A stretch of 64,000 nt of DNA. Source: Sphingobium sp. GTDB taxonomy: Bacteria; Pseudomonadota; Alphaproteobacteria; Sphingomonadales; Sphingomonadaceae. Position 1 is the first letter of the stretch; each line of letters opens with the position of its first letter. The DNA lies in assembly GCA_023266575.1 (NCBI GenBank), contig JAHFPV010000011.1, forward strand, positions 1 through 64,000, in the 5' to 3' direction. Of this stretch, positions 56,780 to 60,751 are shown piece after piece. Position numbers and translations under genes: made by a program. The notes beneath the pieces are model-generated. The model was not told where the DNA came from. It ran no database searches and saw only the letters and a list, made by a program, of their open reading frames with translations.

Positions 56780-57769
56780 CTAGCTCGGCCGATGCCCCTT
56801 GCGCCATTTGGTCCACAGGTGCCGGGCGAGCATCAGCGGAGGCATACGCAACCAGTGGGAGCGCAGGAAGAAGGCGAATATCAGCGCCTTGCGGGTCTCG
56901 CGGCCCCAGCCGTCGCGCGCCAGCAACCGGGCGCGGATCAGCCGGTCCCATAAAGTCAGGCGCGCGCCGGGGCTGTAGAGCGCGGCGGCGAGGCGTCGGG
57001 CTTGCTGGACATGGGGCAGCAAACCGTGCCGGGCGGCACGGGCTATCACTATGTCCGGGTCAGTGTCGGCCAGCAGATGATGGATGTCCCACAGGTTGCG
57101 CAGGCCGCCCTGCAAATCGCCATCGGCCAGCATATGGGCGACGGCGTGGACGACGCGATCTTCGGACGAGAGGACGTACAAGCCATCACCCAAAGGCACA
57201 GCGTCAGCGATCATCGCGGCGGCGTCCGGGGTCTGGCGCGCGGTCAGCGGCAATATCGTGTGATGCACGTCGATCATCCGGTCGCGCGTGGCGTGGATCA
57301 TCGGCGGGAGTTCGTGCATCCATTGGCGATAATAGGCGTCGTCATAGGGATCATCCTTCACCCATTCCCAGCCTGCTGCGATCAGCGCCTGTTCGACCGC
57401 CGCCATCGCCTCCACCGGGACGAGGATGTCGAGATCGCCGATGAAACGGCCCTGCCCGGCCTTCAGCCCGGCGGCGGCATAGGCGGTGCCTTTGAGCAGC
57501 ACGACGCGCACGCCCAACGCCCCAAGCGCCTGTGCCGCGCGGTCGGCTTCCCATAGCGCCTGCCGCGCTTCGCGGGCGGCGTCGGCCCGCGCGTCGGACA
57601 GGATCGGCATGACCGCTGGTGGCACGGCGACGTCGGCCAGGCGAAAGGCCAGCGTCCCGATCAGCCGTTCGGCGCGGGCAGCTGCGATCAGGCCGTTCCA
57701 GCCCGATGCGTCCAGCCCGGCAACGGACGCGGGATCGCGTAGCGTCCGCACCAGCAAGGCAGCGCTCAT
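56780..57769 (-). CDS. Nucleotidyltransferase (NTP_transf_5 type) of the HPr-rel-A cassette
   Basis: 329 residues from ATG 57769 (ATGA overlap with the HprK-like gene). The conserved region VVLLKGTAYAAAGL and RFIGDLDILVP contains the G-D-x-D of this nucleotidyltransferase family; the His-rich MIDVHHTILP segment follows. The C-terminal half is helical and basic. The reaction is unknown. It is the last of a four-gene run: Tat-signal protein, PqqD-like, HprK-like, nucleotidyltransferase. Confidence 0.8.
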   Translation of the reverse strand: MSAALLVRTLRDPASVAGLDASGWNGLIAAARAERLIGTLAFRLADVAVPPAVMPILSDARADAAREARQALWEADRAAQALGALGVRVVLLKGTAYAAAGLKAGQGRFIGDLDILVPVEAMAAVEQALIAAGWEWVKDDPYDDAYYRQWMHELPPMIHATRDRMIDVHHTILPLTARQTPDAAAMIADAVPLGDGLYVLSSEDRVVHAVAHMLADGDLQGGLRNLWDIHHLLADTDPDIVIARAARHGLLPHVQQARRLAAALYSPGARLTLWDRLIRARLLARDGWGRETRKALIFAFFLRSHWLRMPPLMLARHLWTKWRKGHRPS

Positions 57770-58629
57770 GTCCTCTCCTCCCACAGCCGTTCGACCATGG
57801 CGATGGCCTCCTCACCCGTGGGGAAGTCAATGGCGCGTGCGGGAACATGCTGGACGAAACGGGTCAGCGCGGCGAAGCCCGGTTCGCCCAGCGCGACATA
57901 ATTGGTCGACGCCTGGGTCAGGCGCATGAAGATTTCCGCCTGGCGGACGGCACGCATATCGGCGGCGTGGCCGAAGCGGGGAAAGAGCAGCAGCGCGGGC
58001 ATCGCCCCCTTCCCCATACGCGCGACCGCGTCACGGCGGGGGACCATGTGGCGAATATCGCCCTTGGCAGTGGCCGCAAGCAGCGGTCCCATGCGGGCCT
58101 CCCCGACTTCGCCCGCCACCACGTCGATCGCGCGATTCTTCAGGCTGACGAGGCGGGGAAAGGGCAGGATCGCGCCGCTGTCGAGGTCCAGCAAGGCAAA
58201 TTCATCACCCATGAAGCGCCAGCCGCGTTCGCCAAGCAGCGCAGCCAGGGTCGATTTGCCGGAGCCTGACTCGCCAGTCATCACCAGCACGCGGCCATCC
58301 TTCTCCACACTCGACGCATGGAGCAGCAAATGCCGCCGCCAGCCCAGCGCCATTTGCAGGTTCATCCCCATTTCCGCCGCCAGCAGGCCATGGGACAGGC
58401 TCATCGGTGCAGCGTCTGCCAGGCCATGGTCGCCAGTGATGAAGATGGACGGGCGGATGAAGCGGCGCACAAGGCTGGTCGGCTGGAGCCGGACAGTGAA
58501 ATCGGCGATCGCGTCGATCGGCTGCGGATAGGCGGCGTAGAGGCGGGCAAGCTCTGCGATCGGCGCGGGCCAGGCAGAGCCGATGCGGAAGGTCGCAGGA
58601 CCAATGCGCAGGGTCAGGCTCTGCCTCAT
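57766..58629 (-). CDS. HPr-kinase-related protein A (HPr-rel-A system)
   Basis: 287 residues from ATG 58629. The centre matches HPr kinase/phosphorylase: LLHASSVEK, then Walker A MTGESGSGKSTLA (about 118-129) and FMGDEFALLDLD. It lacks the N-terminal HPr-kinase domain. The family is named HprK-related kinase A and is typically found with a PqqD-like protein. No HPr gene is nearby, so its substrate is probably not HPr. Overlaps both neighbours by 4 nt. Confidence 0.82.
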   Translation of the reverse strand: MRQSLTLRIGPATFRIGSAWPAPIAELARLYAAYPQPIDAIADFTVRLQPTSLVRRFIRPSIFITGDHGLADAAPMSLSHGLLAAEMGMNLQMALGWRRHLLLHASSVEKDGRVLVMTGESGSGKSTLAALLGERGWRFMGDEFALLDLDSGAILPFPRLVSLKNRAIDVVAGEVGEARMGPLLAATAKGDIRHMVPRRDAVARMGKGAMPALLLFPRFGHAADMRAVRQAEIFMRLTQASTNYVALGEPGFAALTRFVQHVPARAIDFPTGEEAIAMVERLWEERT

Positions 58630-58922
58630 GCCGGGCGCACCAGACCGAGCGCCACCAGCGCGTCGAGATGCACGGCGATTTCGCGCATGGCATCGTCCGG
58701 CACGCCAAGGTCGAAGCTGCGCGTCAGCCGGTCGTGAATCTGCGCCACGCTGGCGGGGGCGCCGTCGGCCAGTTGATCGAGAATTTCGGGGACCGGGCTG
58801 ATCACCATATGGGTCTGGCCCGACCGGGGATGATAGAGCAGCACGATATCGTCGAGCGCGCAGGCGGTCACCGCGTCCGCCCCGTCCCGCCGATAGAGTT
58901 TCGTTGCTGTCACTATCGCCAC
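58626..58922 (-). CDS. PqqD-family peptide chaperone of the HPr-rel-A system
   Basis: 98 residues from GTG 58922. The winged-helix PqqD/RRE fold is suggested by YRRDGADAVTACALDD, DIVLLYHPRSGQTHMV and HLDALVALGLVRPA. PqqD-like proteins bind the leader of a peptide and present it to a modifying enzyme. Here the neighbour is an HprK-like ATPase. It precedes that gene with a 4-nt overlap and follows the Tat-signal gene by 45 nt. Confidence 0.82.
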   Translation of the reverse strand: MAIVTATKLYRRDGADAVTACALDDIVLLYHPRSGQTHMVISPVPEILDQLADGAPASVAQIHDRLTRSFDLGVPDDAMREIAVHLDALVALGLVRPA

Positions 58923-58967
58923 CTCGCACCGTCCGCCCTGCCCTAACGCAGAGGGGTAGCCAAGTGC

Positions 58968-59408
58968 CTAACGTGGCATCTGGAGCGAGGCGTAGCAGGT
59001 GAAGCCGCTGGTGCCCGACTGGAGGCGGCGGATATAGTTGAGATAGGCCTGGTTCTGCTGATAGCTGGTGCCGGGCAGCGGGCGGCCACGCAGCGCCTGC
59101 TTGACCTGTTCTCCGGTGAAAGGGCGGCCAGTGCCGGGGAAGGCACCGGGCGTCCCGGCGGGAACGAGCTGGCCATTGGGGGCGATCAGATTGCCCGCCC
59201 GGCTGGCGTCCGGCACGGGTATCGTGCAGTTGAGGACCGAGGCAGCGGTGTTCGCCAGCGCCGGGCGGATCGACACGATCGCGGAGGCAGCCGCTGCGCC
59301 GCCCATCAGCAGCTGGCGACGCGACGGCACGGCCAGATCGGGCGTATCGGCCTGCGCAGCCGCTTCGGGCTGCTGGTCATCATCCTGTCCGGTCATCGGC
59401 TCGCTCAT
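58968..59408 (-). CDS. Tat-signal exported protein next to the HPr-rel-A genes
   Basis: 146 residues from ATG 59408; an in-frame ATG at 59471 would add 21. The twin-arginine signal is SRRQLLMGGAAAASAIVS with cleavage near RPALANTA, so the protein is exported folded. The mature part has two Cys (NCTIPVPDAS and GFTCYASLQMPR). No recognised family. Being first in the operon with a PqqD-like chaperone and kinase, it is a candidate substrate, which is inference from position only. A divergent phoR gene starts 98 nt away. Confidence 0.6.
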   Translation of the reverse strand: MSEPMTGQDDDQQPEAAAQADTPDLAVPSRRQLLMGGAAAASAIVSIRPALANTAASVLNCTIPVPDASRAGNLIAPNGQLVPAGTPGAFPGTGRPFTGEQVKQALRGRPLPGTSYQQNQAYLNYIRRLQSGTSGFTCYASLQMPR

Positions 59409-59506
59409 CTGATCCTGATCCGCTATCGGGCTTGCCAAAGCGTCATGATTGCACGCTATTGGGTCTGACATCGCAGCAAATACGCGACAAATCCAGTGCG
59501 GTAACC

Positions 59507-60751
59507 ATGAATCGACTCAGTCTTTCCCAGATCATCGCGTCCTTCGCCGTCCTCTTGCTCAGCACGGGCGCTGCCTTGATGATGGGCGCATCCCCCTTTG
59601 CCATCGCGCTGCCGGTGTTGGCCGGGGTGATCGTCCTGGCCATCACGGCGGATGCCGGGACGCCGCCGCCCGATGTGCCGGACGTGGCGATGGATGAGCC
59701 GGACCTGATCGACCATCCCGATTTCGCCAGCCTGCTGGAGGGGATTTCCGATCCGCTGATGCTGGTGGAGCGCGGGCGGATTGCGCGCGCCAACCGGGCG
59801 GCGCAGCGCCTGCTGGGCGCGCATATCGAGGGGGACGATGCACGCATCGCCATCCGCCACCCTGCCGCCGCTGAACGGCTGGCGAGCCTGGCCCCGCTGG
59901 CCGAACCGTTCATGATCGAACTGGTGGGGCTGGGAACGCGCGAGCAGCGGTGGCAGATGCGGGTCGCGCCGGTCGGTGCAGTGGCCGACATGCGCCGCCT
60001 GGTGCATCTGGTCGACCATAGCGGCACCCATGCCGCCGAGCGGATGCGGGTCGATTTCGTCGCCAATGCCAGCCACGAATTGCGCACGCCGCTGGCCGGG
60101 ATATTGGGCTTTATCGAAACGCTGGCCGACCCGGAACTCGGCAAGGATGACGAGACGCGGCAGCGCTTCCTGAAGATCATGGATGGCGAGGCGCGGCGGA
60201 TGCAGCGGCTGGTCGATGATCTCATCTCCCTTTCGCGGATCGAGGCGGAGAAATATCGCGCGCCGGACGCATCGGTCGATCTGGGCGAACTGGTCGCCGA
60301 AGCGGTCAATGTGTTCCGCTCCAGCCATGGCGAACGGGGCCGCGAGGTGGAGATGGAGGTCTCGCCGGGGCGGCAGGCGGTGCAGGGCGACCGGGCGCAG
60401 CTGTCGCAACTGCTGCACAATCTGATCGGCAATTCGGTGAAATATGGCCGCCCCGGCACGCCGATCCGGGTGACGCTGTCGGAGGGAGGCAGCCGCATGT
60501 GCCGCCTGTCCGTGGCCGACGAAGGCGAAGGGATTGGCCCGGATCATCTGCCGCGCCTGACCGAACGATTCTATCGCGTCGATTCGGGACGCAGCCGGGC
60601 GATGGGCGGCACCGGACTGGGCCTCGCGATCGTCAAACATATTGTCGAGCGGCATCGCGGACGGCTGGACGTGGCGAGCGTGCTGGGCAAAGGGACGACC
60701 GTGACCGTCTTGCTGCCGCTGATGCATGAGGCGGACGGCGGGCAGGTTTGA
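59507..60751 (+). CDS. phoR: Phosphate-regulon sensor histidine kinase PhoR
   Basis: 414 residues from ATG 59507. Two N-terminal membrane helices (about 9-47), a PAS-like domain (about 73-170) with DPLMLVERGRIARANRAAQ, a DHp domain with NASHELRTPLAGILGF (H190) and a HATPase with HNLIGNSVKYGRPG, DEGEGIGP and GTGLGLAIVKHI. The small-HAMP-less layout fits PhoR. Its position before pst supports control of phosphate starvation through PhoB, which would be encoded beyond the window. Confidence 0.92.
   Translation: MNRLSLSQIIASFAVLLLSTGAALMMGASPFAIALPVLAGVIVLAITADAGTPPPDVPDVAMDEPDLIDHPDFASLLEGISDPLMLVERGRIARANRAAQRLLGAHIEGDDARIAIRHPAAAERLASLAPLAEPFMIELVGLGTREQRWQMRVAPVGAVADMRRLVHLVDHSGTHAAERMRVDFVANASHELRTPLAGILGFIETLADPELGKDDETRQRFLKIMDGEARRMQRLVDDLISLSRIEAEKYRAPDASVDLGELVAEAVNVFRSSHGERGREVEMEVSPGRQAVQGDRAQLSQLLHNLIGNSVKYGRPGTPIRVTLSEGGSRMCRLSVADEGEGIGPDHLPRLTERFYRVDSGRSRAMGGTGLGLAIVKHIVERHRGRLDVASVLGKGTTVTVLLPLMHEADGGQV

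Follow-up and report, generated by a model that had tools for sequence, protein, structure and literature searches.

The window analyzed here is a stretch of 64,000 nucleotides from Sphingobium sp. (contig JAHFPV010000011.1). Between positions 56780 and 59408, its minus strand carries a cassette of four genes, which encode (i) a protein of 146 amino acids with a signal for the twin-arginine translocation (Tat) route, the proposed substrate of the system (58968..59408), (ii) a PqqD-like protein of 98 amino acids, a peptide chaperone of the type termed RiPP recognition element (RRE; RiPP, ribosomally synthesized and posttranslationally modified peptide) (58626..58922), (iii) an HprK-related kinase A of 287 amino acids (57766..58629), and (iv) an NTP_transf_5 nucleotidyltransferase of 329 amino acids (56780..57769). 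The open reading frames (ORFs) of the window confirm the layout given in a preliminary description of this DNA: the four genes lie on one strand, the PqqD/kinase and kinase/nucleotidyltransferase gene pairs overlap by 4 nucleotides each, and 45 nucleotides separate the stop of the Tat gene from the start of the PqqD gene. The family assignments made there hold as well. The PqqD-like protein scored 62.3 bits against TIGR04353 (cut-off, 35), the kinase scored 229.9 bits against TIGR04352 (cut-off, 200), and the nucleotidyltransferase matched PF14907 with an E value of 5.1e-51, being the sole match to this family in the genome at E ≤ 0.001. The Tat protein matched no family in Pfam or NCBIfam.

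The Tat signal comprises approximately residues 1 to 52 (59253..59408) and was judged by eye. The segment SRRQLLMGGAAAASAIVSIRPALA|N contains all elements of such a signal, namely, the S/T-R-R-x-x-L motif (SRRQLLMGG), a hydrophobic stretch, and an A-x-A cleavage site (SIRPALA|N). An alternative ATG upstream, at 59471, would result in a protein of 167 instead of 146 amino acids; the start ATGAGCGA- at 59408 is conserved in 18 of the 22 Tat sequences compared. The protein is 99% identical to its counterpart in Sphingobium sp. AS12, and the alignment of 35 Tat relatives has invariant columns at R31, L34, P49, A52, S57, C61, G79, A121, G135, C138, and S141. These include the two Cys residues pointed out in the preliminary description, C61 and C138. 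The latter opens a C-terminal C-x-x-S motif (C138-Y-A-S141; 58986..58997), whose Ser is, judging from the sequence, a candidate phosphate acceptor. The pattern C[WYFLI]xS was found within the last 25 amino acids of 57 of 58 Tat proteins from the Sphingomonadaceae (the family of the window) and within the last 40 amino acids of 39 of 52 Tat proteins from other families; 500 shuffles gave means of 0.28 and 1.21, respectively. In the AlphaFold2 model, the mature part of approximately 86 residues is predicted to be folded, and 10-residue blocks from residue 61 onward have confidence values of 82 to 97. A fold search of this model against the Protein Data Bank (PDB) returned no match at E ≤ 0.001, so that no function can be assigned by fold. 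Ten Tat proteins from other loci did not reach the cut-off of any NCBIfam or Pfam family either; the one from locus L242 approached the generic Tat model with 14.7 bits (cut-off, 16.7).

The Tat gene and the kinase gene occur together. In a survey of 199 Sphingomonadaceae genomes, 61 contained a kinase above the TIGR04352 cut-off, and a profile built from 35 Tat proteins found matches (E ≤ 1e-5) in 61. The two sets are identical, with both genes in 61 of 61 genomes and either gene alone in none of the other 138 (Fisher P = 9e-53, a value that ignores shared ancestry). At least six genera (g22, g36, g44, g51, g54, and g69) mix cassette-bearing and cassette-free genomes, and their genomes always have both genes or neither. 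The 61 family loci, the window included, were viewed with 8-kb flanks or to the contig end. The Tat gene lies upstream of the kinase gene on the same strand in 58 of them. At L033, L075, and L077 it is detached from the kinase locus, and the respective genomes still carry it elsewhere (on another contig in G040, ~163 kb off in G042, and ~280 kb off in G122), each time divergent from a phoR relative. The PqqD profile and the nucleotidyltransferase family each matched in 60 of the 61 loci; the locus lacking the nucleotidyltransferase gene, L064, is on a contig that ends 400 bases past the kinase. Once phoR and pstC distances had been removed, Tat distances correlated with kinase distances with a partial r of 0.70 (46 loci). 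At L049:6387-7659, in a close relative, the Tat and PqqD genes are 1.27 kb apart, the distance being at most 103 nucleotides at the other tabulated family loci.

Outside the family, 55 genomes had a kinase above the cut-off (6 from a class draw of 289 and 49 from a phylum draw of 398). All 55 neighborhoods were examined, and Tat signals were called by a rule on the twin arginine and hydrophobicity, as well as by eye. A Tat-signal gene was found at the PqqD gene or its position in 52 of the 55 genomes. The absence of Tat genes from homologous cassettes, which the preliminary description had named as evidence that would speak against its proposal, is thus seen neither in the family nor, with few exceptions, outside it. 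At 47 of the 55 loci (29/33 plus 18/22), a Tat-signal ORF is located directly upstream on the same strand, and at 40 of these it is followed by a gene matching the PqqD profile. In G602, the Tat-PqqD pair is beside the kinase in divergent orientation; in G635, it shares a contig with the first part of a split kinase; and in G541, G592, and G500, the pair and the kinase are on different contigs. The association therefore survives gene separation, as illustrated by three Tat genes next to phoR and three off-contig Tat-PqqD pairs, which strengthens the reading given in the preliminary description. A gene of the trypsin/DegP-like protease family recurs near 10 of the outside loci (L222, L224, L225, L230, L236, L242, L245, L246, L250, and L252), at 8 of which the Tat protein is without the C-terminal C-x-x-S.

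The PqqD-like protein is predicted to fold like the RREs that grip lasso leader peptides. Its AlphaFold2 model has a predicted local distance difference test score of 90.2, and the best PDB match of this model is TbiB1 with its leader (5v1v; E = 3.4e-4; TM, 0.66), followed by TfuB1 (a leader-bound lasso RRE), the PbtF RRE, and PqqD. At the sequence level, the PqqD profile matched the PDB entries 6jx3 (E = 0.018) and 5v1u (E = 0.033). A match to CpcN (8imn; E = 2e-7) was set aside, as no stretch of it passes alone. The Tat signal may have a second role, namely, that of a leader which the PqqD-like protein would hold. RR-x-x-L is common to the cassette Tat signals, many of which also contain a VVTLxSGxALA-like stretch. 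The pattern hydrophobic-[TS]-[LVIM]-x-[SPRQGN], which was picked after the data were seen, is present in 53 of 58 family signals, 21 of 29 other cassette signals, and 1 of 11 other Tat signals of the genome.

Both enzymes have conserved residues of the active-site type. In the kinase, all 95 aligned rows agree at H104, K125, D142, E143, K164, and K189, and in the nucleotidyltransferase, all 90 agree at K98, G99, R113, D117, and D119; from family knowledge we take these residues to be catalytic. At L233, the two enzymes are fused in one open frame of 706 amino acids. The median pairwise ratios of nonsynonymous to synonymous substitutions (dN/dS), 0.153 for the Tat gene (48 sequences) and 0.344, 0.159, and 0.202 for the PqqD, kinase, and nucleotidyltransferase genes, respectively (46 each), have to be read with a median dS near 1, which is close to saturation; with values of 0.15 to 0.34, all four genes look to be under purifying selection. 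Matches of the kinase sequence in the PDB were mostly P-loop proteins of the ATP-binding cassette type, and HPr kinase matched weakly (E of 0.24 or worse). A separate short HPr-kinase-like gene is found elsewhere in the genome (L002:1384-2858; TIGR00679 E = 5e-22, below the cut-off), directly followed by rapZ, and is likely the housekeeping HPr kinase gene.

Related, longer kinases below the TIGR04352 cut-off (L294 to L303) have an NTP_transf_5 neighbor in 9 of 10 cases. Those of L299, L300, L302, and L303 show weak N-terminal PqqD-like matches (E between 3e-5 and 0.0017; the set had only 11 sequences), and the L299 kinase also matches NF033530 with an E value of 2.5e-4, below its cut-off. Three loci in family genomes (L295:6944-9602, L297:6845-9591, and L298:6947-9475) contain a second, divergent set, in which a Tat-signal gene lies just upstream of the kinase; the mature Tat part is Gly-rich or Gly/Pro-rich, the HprK-like kinase has 369 to 396 amino acids, an NTP_transf_5 gene is present, and no separate PqqD match was found. 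At L303:9362-10344, the region upstream of the kinase, whose N terminus weakly matches PqqD, contains short ORFs in which R(R/E)xxLxxLGxxA stretches are repeated, as if one kinase had several precursors.

We propose that the RRE-guided pair of kinase and nucleotidyltransferase modifies the Tat protein in the cytoplasm, prior to its export by the Tat route, and consider this reasonably probable. The Tat protein would be made with its long N-terminal region and the Tat signal; the PqqD-like protein would bind this region and hand the protein to the HprK-like kinase, which would phosphorylate, or possibly polyphosphorylate, a Ser, most likely that of the C-terminal C-x-x-S; the NTP_transf_5 enzyme would then add a nucleotide or sugar to the Ser phosphate; and the folded, modified protein would leave via the Tat route, with a signal peptidase taking off the leader. 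The Tat route transports folded cargo, so that ATP-dependent chemistry can be completed before export. RRE-guided phosphorylation of a Tat cargo is the best reading of the gene association and of the analogues in the pathways of lasso peptides and linear polyphosphorylated peptides (LPP), taken together. From these we infer the binding, the phosphorylation and its site, the second modification, the order of the steps, and the export, the acceptor site and the second modification being the least certain parts. In regarding the Tat protein as the probable bound and modified substrate we also agree with the preliminary description, which had put this forward as its own conjecture. Its proposal of an uncharacterized modification pathway is supported by the strong genetic association, whereas the chemistry is less uncharted than was thought, since analogous sets of RRE, HprK-like kinase, and NTP transferase have been characterized (PMC9266682, PMC13381572).

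Several observations weigh against this proposal. (i) The generic Tat model TIGR01409 finds 13 places in the genome at E ≤ 10, and the window Tat protein is not one of them; the Tat assignment is therefore based on the motif and its conservation. (ii) A profile built from 29 nonfamily signals gave median scores of 10.4 for 56 family cassette signals and 4.6 for the 11 other Tat signals, with overlapping ranges (P = 0.009), which is a weak test. (iii) PqqD distances showed little extra correlation with Tat distances (partial r, 0.20). (iv) The PqqD profile found nothing at family locus L033 and, in a set of 33 outside loci, at seven that have a Tat gene and no contig break (L236, L240, and L242 to L246); only a short ORF fills the place at these seven. 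(v) No Tat gene was seen in 3 of the 55 outside genomes, in which no genome-wide search was made: G552 has a PqqD gene and no Tat ORF within 3 kb, G205 has PqqD beside the kinase without Tat, and the kinase of G650, a genome of 57% completeness, lies at the end of a contig, without a PqqD match. (vi) In G007 (L092), the kinase and nucleotidyltransferase matches are fragmented and the Tat profile is matched only in part, and this copy may be broken. (vii) Among the outside Tat proteins, 13 of 52 lack the C-terminal C-x-x-S, so that the C-terminal Ser is not the acceptor everywhere. These 13 represent a second kind, several of which have, as judged by eye, C-x-x-S-G near the mature start and a GYW/GWW-like motif. 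(viii) After the P-loop the window kinase has D-E, as opposed to the H-K-D-D of lasso kinases, provided that the last Asp of the latter is the adjacent residue. (ix) In the LPP pathway, deletion of the NTP transferase is described as causing no visible change (PMC13381572), for which reason we are least sure of the second modification step.

Alternatively, the Tat protein may not be the substrate but a partner: another molecule (a small peptide, lipid, or sugar) would be modified by the cassette, and the exported protein would use, carry, or sense the product in the periplasm. Genetic linkage alone does not separate the two roles, and the surroundings of the outside cassettes, often exosortase-A exopolysaccharide genes, are rich in small-molecule or glycan substrates. 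At least one relative of six genes of the XrtA/PEP-CTERM locus was found within 8 kb at 41 of the 55 outside loci (20/33 plus 21/22) and at none of the 61 family loci. NCBIfam named one representative of each of the six genes above its cut-off; some relatives (sigma-54 regulator and amidotransferase) come from broad families, and L291 was counted on the regulator alone. Exosortase itself (PF09721) was rejected as a discriminator because it is too common: 59 of the 61 cassette-bearing genomes have it, but so do 107 of the 138 cassette-free ones (166 of the 199 family genomes in total). A partner role fits less well with the predicted RRE fold, which implies a ribosomal peptide or protein ligand, and with the Tat-PqqD pairs that stay together in three genomes with the kinase elsewhere, although a small precursor may have been missed, as no systematic search for further conserved short ORFs was made. 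We consider it unlikely, while giving it some weight.

The genes around the family cassettes suggest another function, that of sphingomonad phosphate physiology, in which the Tat protein would be an exported phosphoprotein, linked to PhoR, that buffers or senses phosphate. In the window, the divergent neighbor is a phoR-like sensor kinase gene (59507..60751, plus strand; TIGR02966 E = 3e-88), which scores 296 bits, under the cut-off of 334, and which we treat as context and not as a proven part of the cassette. At 53 of the 61 family loci, a phoR relative is encoded on the opposite strand no more than 4 kb from the kinase, and all three detached Tat genes have one next to them; pstC is near the cassette at 47 of 61 loci, and glmS is downstream at 39. 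This linkage could be an inherited position. Among 33 of the 55 outside loci, those checked for it, only L241, a locus from the same order as the window, has phoR nearby, and inspection by eye of 22 upstream sequences revealed no evident PHO-box-like repeat. A dedicated phosphate function therefore appears improbable to us. The gene on the other side, an amidohydrolase gene (window:55378-56769), adjoins the cassette in this window only among the 61 loci, 39 others having glmS downstream. Taken together, the sphingomonad neighborhoods point to phosphate sensing, and those of other proteobacteria point to the cell envelope and exopolysaccharide.

A disguised lasso peptide or LPP cluster, whose short precursor would have gone unseen and whose maturation enzymes would be encoded at other places in the genome, would share with our cassette the set of RRE, HprK-like kinase, and NTP transferase described for such clusters (PMC9266682, PMC13381572). 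We judge it very improbable: a search of the whole genome for the B2 leader peptidase (Transglut_core3) returned no match at E ≤ 0.01, and the mature Tat part is predicted to be a folded domain, not a short core. No macrolactam cyclase is found among the immediate neighbors, which are the amidohydrolase and phoR genes, and the cassette shows neither a leader peptidase nor an exporter, although no profile search for cyclase, SpI peptidase, or MsbA-like exporter, nor a whole-genome search for the cyclase, was made. A regulatory role of the kinase, as an HPr or NPr kinase with incidental neighbors, is scarcely credible, as its distant similarity to HPr kinases (17.1 bits against TIGR00679; Hpr_kinase_C, E = 0.006) is far under the cut-off of 240 bits, another short HPr-kinase-like gene is present beside rapZ, no HPr gene is seen in the four-gene cassette, as the preliminary description had remarked, and the association with a Tat partner extends across the phylum.

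Returning to RRE-guided modification of the Tat protein, a wider and more tentative proposal, possible rather than probable, is that of a phylum-wide class of Tat-exported phosphoproteins, or phosphoglyco- or phosphonucleotidyl-proteins. The signal would be an RRE-held leader, masked until the kinase and the NTP transferase have finished, in a RiPP-like quality check by which only modified, folded protein would be exported; the C-terminal Ser phosphate might be an envelope anchor or a primer, e.g., for exopolysaccharide. If the substrate assignment is true, (i) the HPr-rel-A proteins, which we found only as family names, would obtain a defined client and a reaction that can be tested, (ii) exported proteins would join phosphorylated lasso and LPP peptides as targets of kinase/NTP-transferase chemistry, and (iii) the Tat route would become a carrier of RRE-modified cargo. 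This suggests a widespread, unstudied way to decorate exported proteins, for whose function the envelope/exopolysaccharide neighborhoods and the sphingomonad phoR linkage are starting points.

Among known systems, the closest by name is HPr-rel-A, known to us from its family names and consisting of the NCBIfam TIGR04352 kinase and the TIGR04353 PqqD family peptide chaperone. The window proteins pass both cut-offs; the names cover the kinase and PqqD alone, and the Tat partner goes beyond the models searched. Literature searches on the HPr-rel-A and TIGR names, PF14907, and exosortase with PqqD or HPr kinase yielded no account of such a system, and searches on lasso kinases, PqqD, HprK-like/RRE, and signal-peptide RiPPs yielded none that we recognized in the titles and abstract starts of the matches listed. 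Bufferins and other signal-peptide RiPPs have a precursor that carries an export signal and, together with a partner protein, undergoes modification in the cytoplasm, and the signal is suggested to be part of the recognition (PMC12452194); precursors with Sec signals are described as rare (PMC12452194). They differ from the window system in their Sec signal, MNIO oxidase chemistry, and DUF2063-type partner, as opposed to a Tat signal and a kinase. In term searches, Tat, twin, and kinase were absent from the main text of that study (PMC12452194), as were Tat and kinase from the text of an RRE survey (PMC12710340).

The chemistry has its closest parallels in the two RRE-dependent peptide systems. 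In the phosphorylated lasso peptides paeninodin, SyanA of Sphingobium yanoikuyae, and pseudomycoidin, a kinase, described with H-K-D-D, acts on a precursor Ser beside an RRE (B1), as proposed here, and phosphorylates it up to several times (PMC9266682). For pseudomycoidin, PsmK is described as the kinase, and PsmN, annotated as a nucleotidyltransferase, adds a hexose to the phosphate (PMC9266682). The product of paeninodin-type systems is a peptide, whereas the substrate proposed here is an exported protein. In LPP (Popov et al. 2026), a discrete RRE, an HprK-like kinase, and an NTP transferase occur together without a cyclase and give rise to a phosphorylated linear precursor, LppK placing up to four phosphates on the precursor Ser (PMC13381572). 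LPP clusters are often found beside polysaccharide loci and have features of their own, in that they come from Bacillota, encode a SipW-like leader peptidase and an MsbA-like exporter, and have precursors with a YxxP leader motif (PMC13381572). The leader motif YxxPxVLxHQ is not present in the Tat protein, whose first Tyr is residue 116. The window system in turn is distinguished from LPP by the Tat signal and the predicted folded domain of its precursor. The type of pathway is thus already known from lasso and LPP clusters, and what the cassette would add is its move onto a Tat-exported protein.

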